A stretch of DNA of 39,782 nt. Source: a virus. Of this stretch, positions 8,864 to 16,816 are shown in pieces. The DNA lies in the IMG/VR virus record IMGVR_UViG_3300043418_000109, positions 1-39,782 of that record; one strand, written 5' to 3'. The notes under the pieces are model-generated. The model searched no databases, had not been told where the DNA came from, and was given only the letters and a program-made list of their open reading frames with translations. The position numbers and the translations under genes were made by a program. The stretch's first letter is position 1, and every line of letters starts with the position of its first letter.

Positions 8864-11800
8864 ATGCCATTCTTAAAAGCCCTTCGTTCTGACCCTGCAT
8901 TCAAAGACTTCACGGACGAAGAGCTTTTAGTAGCTACACATCGAACCCTTGGCGGGTCCATTGAGGACGCAGCTAATACCTTGGGATTGGGTAACCCTAA
9001 TGGCGGGGTCTCCTCGCAGCAACTTTCCTCATCAGTTGATCGCTATCAAGCTGGACTTTATGGTGTTGGCGAAGCTGTAGCTGGCGCAGTAGGCGCAGAC
9101 CGGGCTGCATCTGCCCTAGGGCAAAGCCGGAAAGACAACGAGCTCCAAGCTGATATAGCTGAGGGCCGCGCTCGCCGCCAAGGTGCAGTTGGGTCATGGG
9201 AAGATGTCCACGGTGTTGGTGATTTTGGTAGCTATGCCAAGGGCATGGCCATTCAGTCTCTTCCATACGCGGCTGAAGCTATAGCTGGTGGCGCTCTCGC
9301 TCGTGGGGCAATGTCTGGCACCCGTGCCGCTCTCACTGGGGCAAAGACTCTTGAAGAAGTAAATGCACTAAAGCGTACACAAGACCTCGGCTCTTTGGCC
9401 GGGGCCACTGCTGCTTCATACCCATCTTCCGTGGGCGATATTCTTCAAAACCAACGTGAGCAAACAAATGGGCAGACCAACCTTGGCGCTGCCGCTGCAC
9501 TTGGCGTCCCATACGCAGCGTTTAACGCGTTGGGCGAAACCGGGCTGCTAGCCAAAGGGGCTCTTCCTAAAAATCCATTGAATCTCCTAGACAGCGTGGG
9601 CGGATTTAAAGGTGGTGCTGCTCGCGCTGGCGCTTCATTGATTAAAACCGGTGCGGAAGAAGCTGTTGGTGAAACTGGCCAAGAGGTCGTCAATCAATTT
9701 GGACGTATGGCTGTTGACTCCAACGCTGCGCTGACTGACCCTGAAGCTCTGCAACGCTATAAAGAATCTGCTATTGGGGGCTTCGCTCTAGGTGGCTTAA
9801 TGGGCGGCGCTACTGGCTGGCGTCGTAGCCAAGATAGCTCGAATGAGATTGCTGGCGCGTTAAAGGCTAAGGACATTAGCCAGCCAGATATTACAACCAC
9901 ACAGTTTGCGGCTCCGACAGCTCCTGTTGCGTTTGGGCAACAACCTACCCCCATGGCTCCAGCAGTCGCAGGTGGTACAACAGACATTGCAGTAGCCCAA
10001 CAGCAAGCTCAACAAGCAGAAGCTCGGCAGCAAGCTGCTCAGCAGGCACAGGCTACCCGCGAAAAGGCTTTGCAAGATTTCAACGTGGCGGCTCCTGACG
10101 CTAAGCAAGGCCAGTTCCTTGGTAAGCCAATCTTTGGGCCAATGATTTCTCAGGTGGGTGATGCTATCGCTCCGCTCGACGCTGCCATGGACCCGCATCA
10201 GCGCACCATTACGCAAGCCGTGATTGCAGCCAATGCCGAAACAGGCGGCAAGCTGATTAGCTTCTCATTCAACGCTAACAACCCACAAGCTTCTGTCCAA
10301 AAGGGTTTTGAGGCTGTGGCCAAGGCCGCCAACAAATTCCAGATTGCCCATGTGCAGTCAACTGAAGAGGCCGCTCAAATCTTGGATGCTCAGTCACAGA
10401 CTGCCAAGAAGGGCGAGCTCGACCAAATCAACGCTATTTACTTTGCCCTAACGGGTAAGGACACCTCGGGCTACATTGCAGCCCAACAAACCGAAGCCAA
10501 AAAAGGAGCTAAAGATGGAAAACTGCAACTGCAACAGCAAAACAATGCCGGGGTTCGAGAAATTCCAGTCACAGGCGGAGCAACAGAAGCAATCGCTGGA
10601 GGAAATGGGCCTGTACGACCCACTCAAGTTCAATCCGTCGGAGCAACAAGTGTCGGAGCGGGACCGCTTGACCAGCAAGCTGGACAGCCATCAACAGGCG
10701 GAGTACGGCCAAGCCCCACAACCGATGTCACTGCCAATGCTGGCAGTAGCACCACGTCGAACACGCAAGTAAATGAGCAAGCTCAAGCAACCGTTCCAAG
10801 TGCCGCCCAAGTCACCAACGAACGACTCCCTAATGAAAATCTTGGGTCAGTTCCTTCAGCTCAACAAGAGCAATCCGTTGAAGAACAACGAGCCGAAGAA
10901 GTCCCCAACTTAATCCGCTCCGCGCTCCGTATGGTTTACAAGTCTGACCGCAAGGTCGACTTGATGCTGCGCCTAACAGAAAAGACTCAGCGTGGTGACT
11001 ATGCTGCATTGGCGAAAGAATATGGGGTAAGCGAGCAGTACGTTAAGGAGTTGGCGGCTGAGGCCATCACTGATAAGGATGAGACGTTCCCACGTTTCAT
11101 CATGAAGAACATTGACAAATTCATGGCTGCGGTCAATGCGCAAGCGGAGCAATCTGGCATCAGCGTATTGGAAGCCTTGGACGCACTGGAAGCTATCCAT
11201 GATGCCTATGAAGGCGGGCTCGCTTCTCAGTTGGGTACGGAAGTCAATGAGGGCGACCTTATCAATGCTGGCATGGAAATCCAGAATCTCAAAGAGCGCA
11301 CTGATAACCAAGGTAAAGGCACTGGCAAGATAGACCGCACCAACGTATCCGACTTGGCCGAAGAAGGCAACAAGATGGAAGCCTTGATGCAACAGTACTT
11401 GGACTTGTCCAATGAGCTGGAAGCTGCCACTGAAGCCAATGACGAACGTGTCCAAGAACTGGAAGAACAAGTAGCAGCGCTGACTACAAAGATTGCTGAG
11501 GCTGAGAAGAAAGAGAAGTCCCGCGTCCGCGAGACGGCTGGTAAACAAGCACCTAAGGAAACAGAAAATGCCGTTCAAGTCGAAAGCACAGATGAGGGAG
11601 ATGTTCGCCAACCAACCGGAAGTGGCGAAAAAGTGGGCAAAGCTAACGCCAAACCCCAAGAGCCTACCCGAGCACGTAAAGCCAACAACGAAACAAAAAC
11701 GATCCACCGCGTCACCTACGAAGGCAAAGCGGCCACGGTAACTATTATTCGTAATAAGGCAACACCAGAAAAGATTGAAGCCGTCACCGTTAAGCCTGAT

Positions 11801-14800
11801 GGCGAAAGGTTCGCCTTAATAAACTTAGGTGCCCAAGGGGTTGTGTCGGATGAAAAAATGCTGGCCAACATGGTTGAGGGTGACATCATTGACGCCACTA
11901 CTGAACCAACGCTTGGGGCAAAGACCGACGCAGAAAAAGCTGCTGCAGCATGGGACACAGTCGCAGATACCGTTCCCGGTGCTCCTACGTTCGCCCAGCT
12001 GTCGGAAGATGAGCGCAATACGTTCATTGAGTTCGGCTCAGAGAACTGGTCTGCTGACGACGTGCGCACCGAGTTGGTCAAGCTGAATGCTAAGTTCGGT
12101 AAAGACGTTCGCGCTATCAATCCGTACACCGTGGCTGAGCTGACCAAAGACATTGAAGATTTTGTCCGCGCATCAATCTCATCGCGCAAGTTGGTCATAG
12201 TTAACTCAGTAGAAGACCTGACAAACTCTGCTGACAAGGTTGTACAACAGATTGGCGCTGTCCTCGCCATTGAAGGCGCTTACGGCGTCGCGGTAAATGG
12301 TCGCGCCTTCCTGATTGCAAACCGTATCGAAAAAGGTATGGGGCGTGCCAAATTTATGCACGAGGTCGGAGCTCACATAGGGCTAGAAAATCTGCTGCCT
12401 AAAGCAACATACGACCGCCTTGTCGCCCAGATTAAAAAGTGGACAAACTCTGACGCTGACACTGATGAAGTTACCTTGGCTGCCAGAGCTGAGATGCGTG
12501 TCCTCAACGCTAACACTCCTGCCGCGGACTATGATGCAGAACTGCTAGCTTACTTCATTGAGGAAGCTGTCCAAGCAGGCATTGACCCAACCGCTTCTGG
12601 TAAAGAGGCTGGTGCTCTACGCGAGTGGTTCCGTACGTTGTGGGCTGCGTTTAAGGTAGCTGTGCGTAGGCTGGGATACAACCCTGAGTCCATGACTGCG
12701 CAAGACATTGTGGATATGGCTTTTGGCGCTGCTCGTTTAGAGATGTCAGGTACATACCACGGCACTGCCGCCAGCTTTCGCAACTTCCGTAACAAATACA
12801 TTGGCTCTGGAGAAGGGGCTACTGCATACGGTTGGGGTACATACCTTGCTGAACGCTATGGAATTGCCAAGGGGTATTTTGAAGCTGACGTGCGCCGAAA
12901 GGCCGGAGCACCCAAGCTGTTGTGGGCAGCTTTTTCAGATGCAGGTATTAAGCCGGACGCACTTCTTAAAAATTATTATAACCATCAAGGTGAAAAGCTT
13001 ATTCTGATGGCGCAAGCCGGGATCAAATCCAAAGCGAACGGCGATTTGATCGTTACTGTTAAGTACCTCGATGGGCGCATGGCTGGTCAGACTGAGTCTC
13101 GTAGCTTAAATAACATTGTCGATGCCAAGGGTGACCTCGCGTTTAGCAATGAGCAACAAACAGCACTTGGGAAATCCGCTGCCCAATATACTTCCGAGTC
13201 AGAGGGCAACCTCATGCGAGTTGATACCTCGGTTGCCGACGACGAGTTATTTAACTACAACGCCACAGTAGCTGACCAGCCACAACGGGTAAAAACCGCC
13301 ATCAAATCTTTACTCGAGCCAATCGCGGATGAGGTAGTAGACCGTACTAACACCGATGTGGATGAACTTACTGGGCGAGACCTGTTTGGTACTGGTGAGA
13401 ATGACCTTGGCTTGCTGAGCCGTTTAATCATGGATGATGTCCTTGTCGGTAAGGGCGCTGCGTTTGATAAGGCTGTTCAGCAAGGGGAGTTCCACAAAGC
13501 AGCATCTTTACTTCTCGAAGAAGTGGGCGTCGCAGGCATTAAGCACTTAGATGCTCGTAGCCGTGGCACTGCCACTAGCGTCATTCAGTTCCGTGGAAAA
13601 TCATACAACCGAGATGAGTTGCGGGATGCCGCTCGCGCTGCCTACGCAGCCAAGGACGATGTGCAAACATTTGAAATGGGTATGTTGCGAAGTCTGCTTC
13701 AGAACGGGGTCGCTCATGTCAAGGCTATGCACCAGTCCAAGCAAGCATATTACGAGCGCATGTTCTACAAGACGGACAAAGAGTCTGCTGAGAAATTCAA
13801 AGTCCCTTTCAATGAAGAACAAGCTCGTGCAGATGCAAAACGCAAAACCAAAGACCTGTTTGAGACCAAAGCGCTTGACTGGCTGGATAAGCATGAGTCT
13901 GAGATTTCCTTGGCAGAGAACCCACGTACGTACAACCGTATCTTGTTCAGTGATAAAAACATCTTCCGTGTGGGCGGCCAAGTTGCGGCAGATAAAGACC
14001 GCATGCGCTTCGGTAAAGAAATGTCTACCCGTCTGAACGAAGGTTTGGACAATGTGCTGCCTGCCTCGGTATCTAAGCCCGCCAAATCAGTGGTGACCAA
14101 CTTGGCCACTGCGGCTAAGAACGGACTGCTGTCTGCTGGTATCACTGAAGACATCGTCAACATGGCCGGTAAGTACATGCGTTCGGCTCAGGACTACCTG
14201 ACTGCTCAGTACGCTCGTCAAAAGACGCGCCTCGACTTTGAACAGAAGATTGAGTCCATCTTGGATGGGTTTGATAAGTTGCCCAAGGTCCTGCAAGGCG
14301 AAGGTGCTGGTAGCGTGAACCGGTTCATCTTAGACTCCACAATGGCCAAGAAGTGGGGCTACTATCCCGGCGAACATCGCATTGGTACAACCTTGTTTGA
14401 GGTTGACCCTGACCTAGCTGCACGATTCAAAGCTTTCCCTGCTGACGCCCAACAAGTTATCCGTGATGTGTTTGAGCATGGCTATACAGCCCTCAAGGCC
14501 AAGAGTGACGCTATCGACGCTGCGGTTGAACGTGAGTTCGCTGAACGCACTAAAGCTGCTCAAGGCGATGCTGACCTGATGGATGAAGTGGCACAAGCTA
14601 AGAAGCTGATGCGCTCGCAACTGAGCAAAATCCAGAACGTGGACTTCACTACTCCTTACGCTTACCTTGGTCGTTACGGCGATTACGTGGTGGCTGCCAA
14701 GTCTGCTGAGTTCAAGTACTGGGAAGGCGTTGCCGCTGAGAAAGGCGAGAACAAGGAACGTGCCATTGGCTGGCTGGCTGAGCATGTCTCCAATCCAGAG

Positions 14801-16816
14801 CACTACGTTGTTCAGTTCGCTGAGACTCAAGGTGAGGCTGACCAGATTGCTGCTGACCTGATGGCCACTGGTAAGTTCGATATGGACGGCTCTGAGGCTG
14901 GCCCTAAAGAAGATGCGGCTTCCTTCATTGGCTCTGATGTCCACCTCGCTGTGGCTCGTTTACGTAACCTCATCACCCGCCAAGGTGGCGAAGAAGGTGA
15001 AGGCAGTGCTGAGCTCAACCGTATGGTGTCTGACCTGTACTTGATGACTGCTGCTGAAAACAGTGCTCGCAAGTCGGAAATCATGCGTAAGTATGTGGCT
15101 GGTGCAAACGCCAACATGATGCGTAACTTGGCCACGTCTGGCCGAGCCGATGCTCACTTCCTGAGCACCATGAAGCACAACGATGAAGTTGTTGAGTCTC
15201 TTGAGCGTATGCGCAATGAGGCCAAGAATAATGTCCGCAACGCAATGCCTATCTACAACGAGTTGTTCAAACGCCAAACGAACAGCCTTGAGTACAAGAC
15301 TCCATCGCCATTGAGCCGTGCTCTGACTCAGGCCACCTCTGTGTGGTTCTTGGCCACTAGCCCTGCGTTCTATCTGCAACAGTTGCTGCAAACTACTGTG
15401 CTGTCGCTGCCGTACATGTCTGGCCGCCTTGGCTACTTCCGCTCGGTTCGTGCCATCAAGTCTGCGTACAGTGACGTGGCGGAGTTGGTCAAAGGCTTGG
15501 GCGTCAATGCCCACATTGATTTCTCTAAGGCCCCAGCTGATGTGCGCGCTATGCTCCAGACTCTGGTCGGCATGGGCAAGATTGATATTGGTATCGACGC
15601 TGACGCCAAGGCTCGCGCTGGTGAGCACAACGCACTGAACACAGTAATGCGCAAGCTCCAAGGTGTAAATAACCGTATTGAAGCTGTGAACCGTGCAACT
15701 GCTGCTATCGCTGCATACCGTGGTTACATCCAACGCTACGGTGCTGGTAGCACTGACGCTGCTACTAAGTTTGCTGCTGAAGTTGTGTCCAATACCCATG
15801 GCTCATACGACGGCTTTAACACCCCACGTATCTTGAACTCCGACACTGGCCGCTTGATTGGCCAGTTCAAGCGCTTCCAAATCATTCAGCTCTCCATGCT
15901 GGGCAAGCTCATCAACACATCCTTCAAAGGCGCAAGTCCCGAGGAGCGTGTGATCGCACGACGTGCGTTGGCTTTCATCACAGGCCACATGGCTGTACTC
16001 GGCGGCGCACTCGGTGTTCCATTTGTACAACAAGTCGGCGCTATGTTGCTGGCTGCCTTCGGCGATGATGACGAACCAAAAGACCTCGAGTACCAACTGC
16101 GCCAAGCTATCGGTGACGAGACTATGGCCAACCTGCTCCTGAACGGTGTACCCGCTGCGGCTGGTGTGAACCTCGGTGGCAAGCTGGGTATGGGCAACGT
16201 CGCTTCTATCCTGCCATTCACTGACGTGGACTTGTCCAAGCGTTCTGGTTATGAGAAGATGGCTGTCGGCTTGATGGGCCCATTCTTTGGTGGTCTGGCT
16301 CCTAAGTTCATCGACGGTGCTGGCATGGTAGCCAAAGGTGAGTACTACAAGGGTCTGGAATTGTTGATGCCCAACGGTGTTGGCAATGCGATGAAGGGCG
16401 TCCGCTACGCTAACGAAGGTGTGACTATGCGCAACGGCGATGTAGTCTTGAAGCCTGAAGAAATCAGCATGGTAGATGCCGCGTTCCAAGCTGTTGGATT
16501 GCCAACGACTACTATTACTGGCCGTCAGTACACTCAGAAAGTCACTGCTGAGTTTGACCAGTTCTATTCTGACAAGACGGCGAACATTAAAGGTGCGTAC
16601 GTCAATGCGAACCGCGCTGGCGATACCGAAGGTATGGCTGAAGCCCGCAAAGACTGGGAAGAATTACAAGCCTCCCGTAAGCAAAATGGATATAAAATCC
16701 AACCTATGTCGGAGCTGTTTAAAGCTACTATGGCTGCCCGTAAGCGTGAAGCTGGTGTGGTGGACGGTGTGGAGACTAACAAGTCCAACAAACAGTTTGT
16801 AAAGAACATTATCTAA
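8864..16816 (+). CDS. giant internal virion / polyvalent protein (zincin-like, ART-like and PLxRFG-like regions)
   Basis: 2650 aa from ATG 8864 after AAGGTG. Order: helical N-terminus (1-60); Gly/Ala-rich, weakly hydrophobic segments (about 60-330) resembling ejection proteins; Gln-rich stretch (about 375-400); linker (about 550-680); coiled coil (about 835-890); second linker (about 900-950); metallopeptidase motif KFMHEVGAHIGLE (HEVGAH 1166-1171); ADP-ribosyltransferase-like motif beginning YHGTAASF (1298) with GEGATAYGWGTYLAE; PLxRFG-like PYAYLGRYGDY (1931-1941); C-terminal hydrophobic segments near 2155-2185 and 2365-2400. HExxH, ART and PLxRFG modules are known from phage polyvalent proteins thought to enter with DNA. 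No lysozyme or transglycosylase motif was found. Three other-frame ORFs lie in its linkers. Confidence 0.85.
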   Translation: MPFLKALRSDPAFKDFTDEELLVATHRTLGGSIEDAANTLGLGNPNGGVSSQQLSSSVDRYQAGLYGVGEAVAGAVGADRAASALGQSRKDNELQADIAEGRARRQGAVGSWEDVHGVGDFGSYAKGMAIQSLPYAAEAIAGGALARGAMSGTRAALTGAKTLEEVNALKRTQDLGSLAGATAASYPSSVGDILQNQREQTNGQTNLGAAAALGVPYAAFNALGETGLLAKGALPKNPLNLLDSVGGFKGGAARAGASLIKTGAEEAVGETGQEVVNQFGRMAVDSNAALTDPEALQRYKESAIGGFALGGLMGGATGWRRSQDSSNEIAGALKAKDISQPDITTTQFAAPTAPVAFGQQPTPMAPAVAGGTTDIAVAQQQAQQAEARQQAAQQAQATREKALQDFNVAAPDAKQGQFLGKPIFGPMISQVGDAIAPLDAAMDPHQRTITQAVIAANAETGGKLISFSFNANNPQASVQKGFEAVAKAANKFQIAHVQSTEEAAQILDAQSQTAKKGELDQINAIYFALTGKDTSGYIAAQQTEAKKGAKDGKLQLQQQNNAGVREIPVTGGATEAIAGGNGPVRPTQVQSVGATSVGAGPLDQQAGQPSTGGVRPSPTTDVTANAGSSTTSNTQVNEQAQATVPSAAQVTNERLPNENLGSVPSAQQEQSVEEQRAEEVPNLIRSALRMVYKSDRKVDLMLRLTEKTQRGDYAALAKEYGVSEQYVKELAAEAITDKDETFPRFIMKNIDKFMAAVNAQAEQSGISVLEALDALEAIHDAYEGGLASQLGTEVNEGDLINAGMEIQNLKERTDNQGKGTGKIDRTNVSDLAEEGNKMEALMQQYLDLSNELEAATEANDERVQELEEQVAALTTKIAEAEKKEKSRVRETAGKQAPKETENAVQVESTDEGDVRQPTGSGEKVGKANAKPQEPTRARKANNETKTIHRVTYEGKAATVTIIRNKATPEKIEAVTVKPDGERFALINLGAQGVVSDEKMLANMVEGDIIDATTEPTLGAKTDAEKAAAAWDTVADTVPGAPTFAQLSEDERNTFIEFGSENWSADDVRTELVKLNAKFGKDVRAINPYTVAELTKDIEDFVRASISSRKLVIVNSVEDLTNSADKVVQQIGAVLAIEGAYGVAVNGRAFLIANRIEKGMGRAKFMHEVGAHIGLENLLPKATYDRLVAQIKKWTNSDADTDEVTLAARAEMRVLNANTPAADYDAELLAYFIEEAVQAGIDPTASGKEAGALREWFRTLWAAFKVAVRRLGYNPESMTAQDIVDMAFGAARLEMSGTYHGTAASFRNFRNKYIGSGEGATAYGWGTYLAERYGIAKGYFEADVRRKAGAPKLLWAAFSDAGIKPDALLKNYYNHQGEKLILMAQAGIKSKANGDLIVTVKYLDGRMAGQTESRSLNNIVDAKGDLAFSNEQQTALGKSAAQYTSESEGNLMRVDTSVADDELFNYNATVADQPQRVKTAIKSLLEPIADEVVDRTNTDVDELTGRDLFGTGENDLGLLSRLIMDDVLVGKGAAFDKAVQQGEFHKAASLLLEEVGVAGIKHLDARSRGTATSVIQFRGKSYNRDELRDAARAAYAAKDDVQTFEMGMLRSLLQNGVAHVKAMHQSKQAYYERMFYKTDKESAEKFKVPFNEEQARADAKRKTKDLFETKALDWLDKHESEISLAENPRTYNRILFSDKNIFRVGGQVAADKDRMRFGKEMSTRLNEGLDNVLPASVSKPAKSVVTNLATAAKNGLLSAGITEDIVNMAGKYMRSAQDYLTAQYARQKTRLDFEQKIESILDGFDKLPKVLQGEGAGSVNRFILDSTMAKKWGYYPGEHRIGTTLFEVDPDLAARFKAFPADAQQVIRDVFEHGYTALKAKSDAIDAAVEREFAERTKAAQGDADLMDEVAQAKKLMRSQLSKIQNVDFTTPYAYLGRYGDYVVAAKSAEFKYWEGVAAEKGENKERAIGWLAEHVSNPEHYVVQFAETQGEADQIAADLMATGKFDMDGSEAGPKEDAASFIGSDVHLAVARLRNLITRQGGEEGEGSAELNRMVSDLYLMTAAENSARKSEIMRKYVAGANANMMRNLATSGRADAHFLSTMKHNDEVVESLERMRNEAKNNVRNAMPIYNELFKRQTNSLEYKTPSPLSRALTQATSVWFLATSPAFYLQQLLQTTVLSLPYMSGRLGYFRSVRAIKSAYSDVAELVKGLGVNAHIDFSKAPADVRAMLQTLVGMGKIDIGIDADAKARAGEHNALNTVMRKLQGVNNRIEAVNRATAAIAAYRGYIQRYGAGSTDAATKFAAEVVSNTHGSYDGFNTPRILNSDTGRLIGQFKRFQIIQLSMLGKLINTSFKGASPEERVIARRALAFITGHMAVLGGALGVPFVQQVGAMLLAAFGDDDEPKDLEYQLRQAIGDETMANLLLNGVPAAAGVNLGGKLGMGNVASILPFTDVDLSKRSGYEKMAVGLMGPFFGGLAPKFIDGAGMVAKGEYYKGLELLMPNGVGNAMKGVRYANEGVTMRNGDVVLKPEEISMVDAAFQAVGLPTTTITGRQYTQKVTAEFDQFYSDKTANIKGAYVNANRAGDTEGMAEARKDWEELQASRKQNGYKIQPMSELFKATMAARKREAGVVDGVETNKSNKQFVKNII
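10515..10772 (+). CDS. putative overprinted small gene (85 aa) inside the giant gene
   Basis: ATG 10515 is preceded by a perfect AAGGAG (10503-10508) with 6-base spacing, in the +1 frame relative to the host gene. The product is hydrophilic with a Cys/Asn start (MENCNCNSKTMPGFEKF), a helical charged middle (QSQAEQQKQSLEEMGLYD) and a basic end (APRRTRK). Its codons favour G/C third positions (CTG, AAG, GAG, CCG). In the giant's own frame the same bases give a low-complexity linker unusually rich in GGA glycine codons. That suggests the overlapping frame is under selection. Function unknown. Chance cannot be excluded without comparative data. Confidence 0.6.
   Translation: MENCNCNSKTMPGFEKFQSQAEQQKQSLEEMGLYDPLKFNPSEQQVSERDRLTSKLDSHQQAEYGQAPQPMSLPMLAVAPRRTRK
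10773..10913 (+). CDS. putative second overprinted ORF (46 aa)
   Basis: ATG 10773 directly follows the TAA of the preceding nested ORF in the same frame, so reinitiation is plausible; there is no separate Shine-Dalgarno. The product is basic: MSKLKQPFQVPPKSP, then a helix SLMKILGQFLQLNK and a Lys/Pro-rich tail. Codon choice resembles its neighbour (AAG, CTC, CCG). The giant's frame here is a Gln/Glu/Ala linker. Weaker evidence than for the two ORFs with their own ribosome-binding sites. Confidence 0.42.
   Translation: MSKLKQPFQVPPKSPTNDSLMKILGQFLQLNKSNPLKNNEPKKSPT
11568..11741 (+). CDS. putative overprinted small gene (57 aa), KSKAQ-type phage protein
   Basis: ATG 11568 lies 8 bases after AAGGA (11555-11559), again in the +1 frame of the giant gene. 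The product begins MPFKSKAQMREMFANQPEVA and continues KKWAKLTPNPKSLPEHVK. From memory this matches a recurrent small phage protein pattern (PFKSKAQ.R.MFA...A..WAK.TPN.K.LPE.V), normally a free-standing gene. The tail is Lys/Arg/Thr-rich. The function of such proteins is unknown. In the giant's frame the region is a charged linker between the coiled coil and the next folded segment. Confidence 0.62.
   Translation: MPFKSKAQMREMFANQPEVAKKWAKLTPNPKSLPEHVKPTTKQKRSTASPTKAKRPR

Follow-up and report, generated by a model that had tools for sequence, protein, structure and literature searches.

On comparative sequence evidence, positions 11568-11741 of the window, the whole 39,782-nt stretch of virus DNA analysed here (IMG/VR record IMGVR_UViG_3300043418_000109), form a gene that codes for a KSKAQ/phrog_1375 protein and is overprinted in the +1 frame of a giant virion gene (Table 1). 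The case for this gene is carried by homology and by selection, its length being unremarkable. The same small gene stands alone near DNA-packaging genes in other phages and recurs, nested in a single phase, within two types of large virion gene.

Table 1. Coordinates of the host gene, the two nested genes and the sequences preceding their starts
Feature	Position	Strand	Basis and remarks
Host gene, 2650-aa giant virion/polyvalent protein, PLxRFG, DarB-like C-terminus	8864..16816	+	Profile matches
AAGGAG before the 85-aa gene	10503..10508	+	Sequence; recurs within -20..-4 in 35/45 loci
Second nested gene, 85 aa	10515..10772	+	+1 frame of host, linker 1; conserved in its own frame
AAGGA, SD-like	11555..11559	+	Sequence; 8-nt spacer to the KSKAQ ATG
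Nested KSKAQ gene, 57 aa	11568..11741	+	+1 frame of host; phrog_1375 match, relatives, selection

The nested gene and its family

The first-pass annotation had described an ORF led by AAGGA at 8-nt spacing in the +1 frame relative to ORF 8864-16816, and this reading stands, with an ATG at 11568, 57 codons and a stop at 11739-11741. In the host frame the overlapping DNA reads NAVQVESTDEGDVRQ..., from giant residue 902. That annotation had also seen in the product a recognisable phage family, one known as a stand-alone gene and lying out of frame inside the giant by more than chance, and the searches bear this out. The product matches phrog_1375, a phage family of unknown function, at E 3.2e-4 over the MPFKSKAQ...LP core, and a family profile built without the window sequence matches it at E 2e-20. 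Among 1000 shuffles of the giant that preserve the host peptide, the best match to the same profile reached E 1e-10, and 59 of the 1000 fell at E<1e-3. ORF length was rejected as evidence for a gene, since synonymous shuffling yields a mean of 4.8 +1-frame ATG ORFs of at least 57 codons in the giant against 6 observed (P 0.33).

Homologues of the 57-residue product are numerous, and they are not confined to the linker of a host protein. At least 378 relative-encoding stretches were present among the first 600 candidates listed in one collection scan, so that the family extends beyond those listed, and 40 of 73 KSKAQ relatives match phrog_1375 one by one at E<=0.01. We fetched 234 loci with a hit, a non-random set in which the searches favour relatives of the chosen queries and whose ratio of nested to stand-alone genes is not a population estimate; 160 of these are nested, defined as lying beneath a host ORF that runs on the same strand and is 300 aa or longer, 69 stand outside any such ORF, and in 5 the host ORF is truncated at the contig end. 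The nested loci, among which are several nearly identical contigs and a duplicate of the window itself (L003), represent 138 distinct sequences. Their hosts are either giants (63 loci) or a protein of ~400 aa (96 loci matching one profile), so that the nesting pattern is wider than could be seen from the window, recurring in other giants and in a gene at the scaffold position. A single phase is common to all 160 nested loci. As proof of one origin this uniformity is weak, because in stand-alone copies too the host phase is open more often than the phase that is not the host's (0.38 vs 0.20). Nor is KSKAQ universal, since three records of giants that carry the 85-aa gene (L298, L322 and L323) have no detectable KSKAQ match.

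An SD-like sequence precedes KSKAQ in the 11 window-lineage loci listed and in 0/107 of the scaffold-type and KAC-giant copies, the latter being below background. SD-independent initiation occurs in Bacteroidota and might fit this absence. Stop codon usage also varies among nested copies, TAG being common in the scaffold-type and KAC-giant sets and less so at the other stops of those loci; TAA terminates each of the 11 window-lineage copies. At five loci (L022, L027, L030, L033 and L036) the KSKAQ domain forms the N-terminus of a protein that stands alone and measures about 192-198 aa.

Selection on the two frames and competing explanations

Each change was classed by what it does to either frame, using our own dNN/dNS script modelled on the logic of OLGenie (PMC7531306). 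All pairs within groups were scored first, and then sister pairs that are independent of one another, with the host flanks as a control. In the sister pairs, purifying selection was found on the alternate frame, as would be expected of an overprinted gene: over the overlap w_small is 0.12-0.35 and the host frame gives 0.88-1.10, whereas the flanking host sequence gives 0.69-0.86 in the phase of the small frame and 0.20-0.40 in that of the host. Stand-alone KSKAQ copies give 0.21. None of the nested copies has a stop in the host phase, where about 2 would be expected from stand-alone codon use. Judged from these comparisons, the host frame across the overlap is kept free of stops and otherwise drifts.

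These data bear directly on how the overlap should be read. That the conserved object is a peptide of the host linker (AVQxQST...), which the +1 ORF merely follows, is extremely improbable. The host peptide motif does recur across hosts, and the 59 shuffles mentioned above still match KSKAQ, but the constraint lies on the small frame over the overlap and on the host frame only in the flanks, which already contradicts such a reading; moreover, stand-alone copies exist, and 60% of the distinct ones have stops in the host phase. It is just as hard to credit that a conserved DNA or RNA element, such as a recombination or packaging site, is retained here with the ORF as an incidental passenger. Modules recombine around the site, as this idea would have it, but differences over the overlap pile up at third positions of the KSKAQ codons while protein identity is retained, a combination that marks coding and already makes such an element unlikely. 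A programmed frameshift, in which the KSKAQ codons would form the tail of a shortened giant rather than follow a start of their own, seems very unlikely. In its favour, no stop interrupts the +1 frame over a stretch ahead of the ATG that measures 84 nt in the window, but in many relatives this frame is closed 18-33 nt upstream, and every nested copy retains the ATG, at the same point as the start of the stand-alone genes.

A selfish insertion, maintained because it moves and not because it is of use to the phage, deserves somewhat more weight, though we still regard it as unlikely. The ShiLan element, a hidden HNH endonuclease in a phage methylase, has the same layout, namely an inserted segment that leaves the host frame open and conceals a gene out of frame (PMC11855218), and it is the nearest published idea that we found among open-access papers. 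The upstream halves of the giants are unrelated and yet the small gene persists. However, ShiLan is a homing nuclease inside an enzyme, whereas KSKAQ is a small non-nuclease protein in the linkers of virion genes; family searches returned no nuclease-like match in the hidden frame, each of 36 whole-searched records has a single copy (as searched with one profile), and on the scaffold tree the position is inherited by clade. No report of KSKAQ nesting was found in the open-access literature, which does not show it to be undescribed. In phage lambda, Rz1 is nested inside Rz, and the two are lysis proteins of linked function. That pair resembles KSKAQ as a small gene in the other frame of a larger phage gene, but its sequence is unrelated, and KSKAQ differs in recurring in unrelated hosts.

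We favour, as the probable explanation, internal initiation in the giant mRNA. With the AAGGA/ATG as their starting point, some ribosomes would produce the small protein on its own; others, reading the giant frame, would translate the same codons as a tolerant, flexible linker between exchangeable modules. That the small frame is translated is suggested by the selection on it together with its start signals. The KSKAQ gene probably stood alone first and would have been engulfed when virion genes were extended or recombined across it. A bolder version, which we put forward as a doubtful possibility, is a dual-frame cassette: the out-of-frame reading of KSKAQ would provide a ready acidic or neutral linker, unrelated virion genes would have acquired the gene where their modules meet, and there it would serve the giant modular proteins as a hinge for recombination.

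Product of the small gene and its absence from gene tables

The KSKAQ product is predicted to be basic and is modelled as two short helices followed by a basic, less certain Lys-rich tail (mean pLDDT 78). Its best fold matches, none of them below E 0.001, are small uncharacterised phage proteins, among them proteins of Mycobacterium phage Barnyard and Streptomyces phage Fabian. No function or nuclease family was assigned to KSKAQ by any library searched, PHROGs and NCBIfam among them; PADLOC and NCBIfam returned nothing for the small proteins, a sequence search of the PDB gave repeat proteins and weak hits only, and tblastn with a hand-written Lys-rich consensus gave no match, perhaps because of masking. 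The small proteins of PHROG 1375 share the sequence family and size of the window product, which differs from them in being encoded out of frame within a virion gene.

PHROGs were applied to 20 genes from the vicinity of stand-alone copies, picked because they were large and in some cases not immediately next to the copy; 11/20 are terminase large subunit, portal, head-tail adaptor, protease or major head protein, and the others comprise 7 without a PHROG match, 1 of unknown function and 1 cytidyltransferase. Since most of the typed neighbours are packaging or head genes, and the nested copies sit within genes of the virion or the head module, the product is probably a small late protein for head assembly or DNA packaging, a role suggested by context alone and less certain than the internal start.

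The gene tables of MW202828 (uncultured phage) and MT497067 (Flavobacterium phage) have no gene at the nested site. For the remainder of a set of 68 Flavobacterium phage records, which includes RefSeq duplicates, the match was seen to fall beneath a gene named structural protein. KSKAQ is found by itself near DNA-packaging genes and is hidden in many more genomes, and annotations thus appear to miss a conserved phage protein, out of frame inside large virion genes, in deposited phage genomes as well. One gene found alone and in two nested settings offers a natural comparison for the origin and tolerance of overlapping genes, and the linkers of giant modular proteins are places in which further hidden genes could be sought.

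Host genes and the second nested gene

The giant belongs with the PLxRFG and DarB-like proteins, matching NCBIfam NF032893 at E 1.9e-88 (297.7 bits, cut-off 100) and the DarB-like phrog_10089 at E 5.9e-55; a match to ART-PolyVal is weak (E 0.006) and under the cut-off of that profile. A near DNA search of the giant among phages gave no match. Among the giants, the modules directly upstream and downstream of KSKAQ pair up in many combinations. In this the host gene is like the polyvalent proteins, giant modular phage proteins with exchangeable domains (PMC5512222); the terms overlapping, linker and scaffold are absent from that paper, and no nested genes were seen described there.

The ~400-aa host is found in L111 and L220 between the portal and a virion structural protein, in the order terminase-portal-nested host-virion structural protein. 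No profile names it as a scaffold, and the scaffold-position label rests on gene order. In the tree of this host, giant-nested and ~400-aa-nested genomes fall each on one side of a single branch. Within its clades, the KAC and RFL types of KSKAQ interleave, which hints at allele swaps at the nested site.

The second nested gene is, by the same kinds of sequence comparison, supported equally well as KSKAQ. It is nested in the same phase in 50/52 loci, the other 2 being cut by contig edges, and its frame has w 0.36 (0.30-0.41) against 1.36 for the host frame; where both genes are seen it lies about 0.9-1.7 kb ahead of KSKAQ. The first-pass annotation had placed a gene in this first linker, which is real and needs only its start moved to 10515. 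It had counted three nested ORFs in two linkers, of which KSKAQ and the 85-aa gene are supported; the remaining 46-aa ORF (10773-10913) was rejected as a gene, its start codon being unconserved. Its further suggestion, that linkers serve as landing sites for small genes, suits KSKAQ, which also occurs outside hosts, but does not extend to the 85-aa gene, for which no stand-alone relative was found among the 52 loci. Linker 1 of L322 contains another SD-led +1 ORF, of 74 aa.
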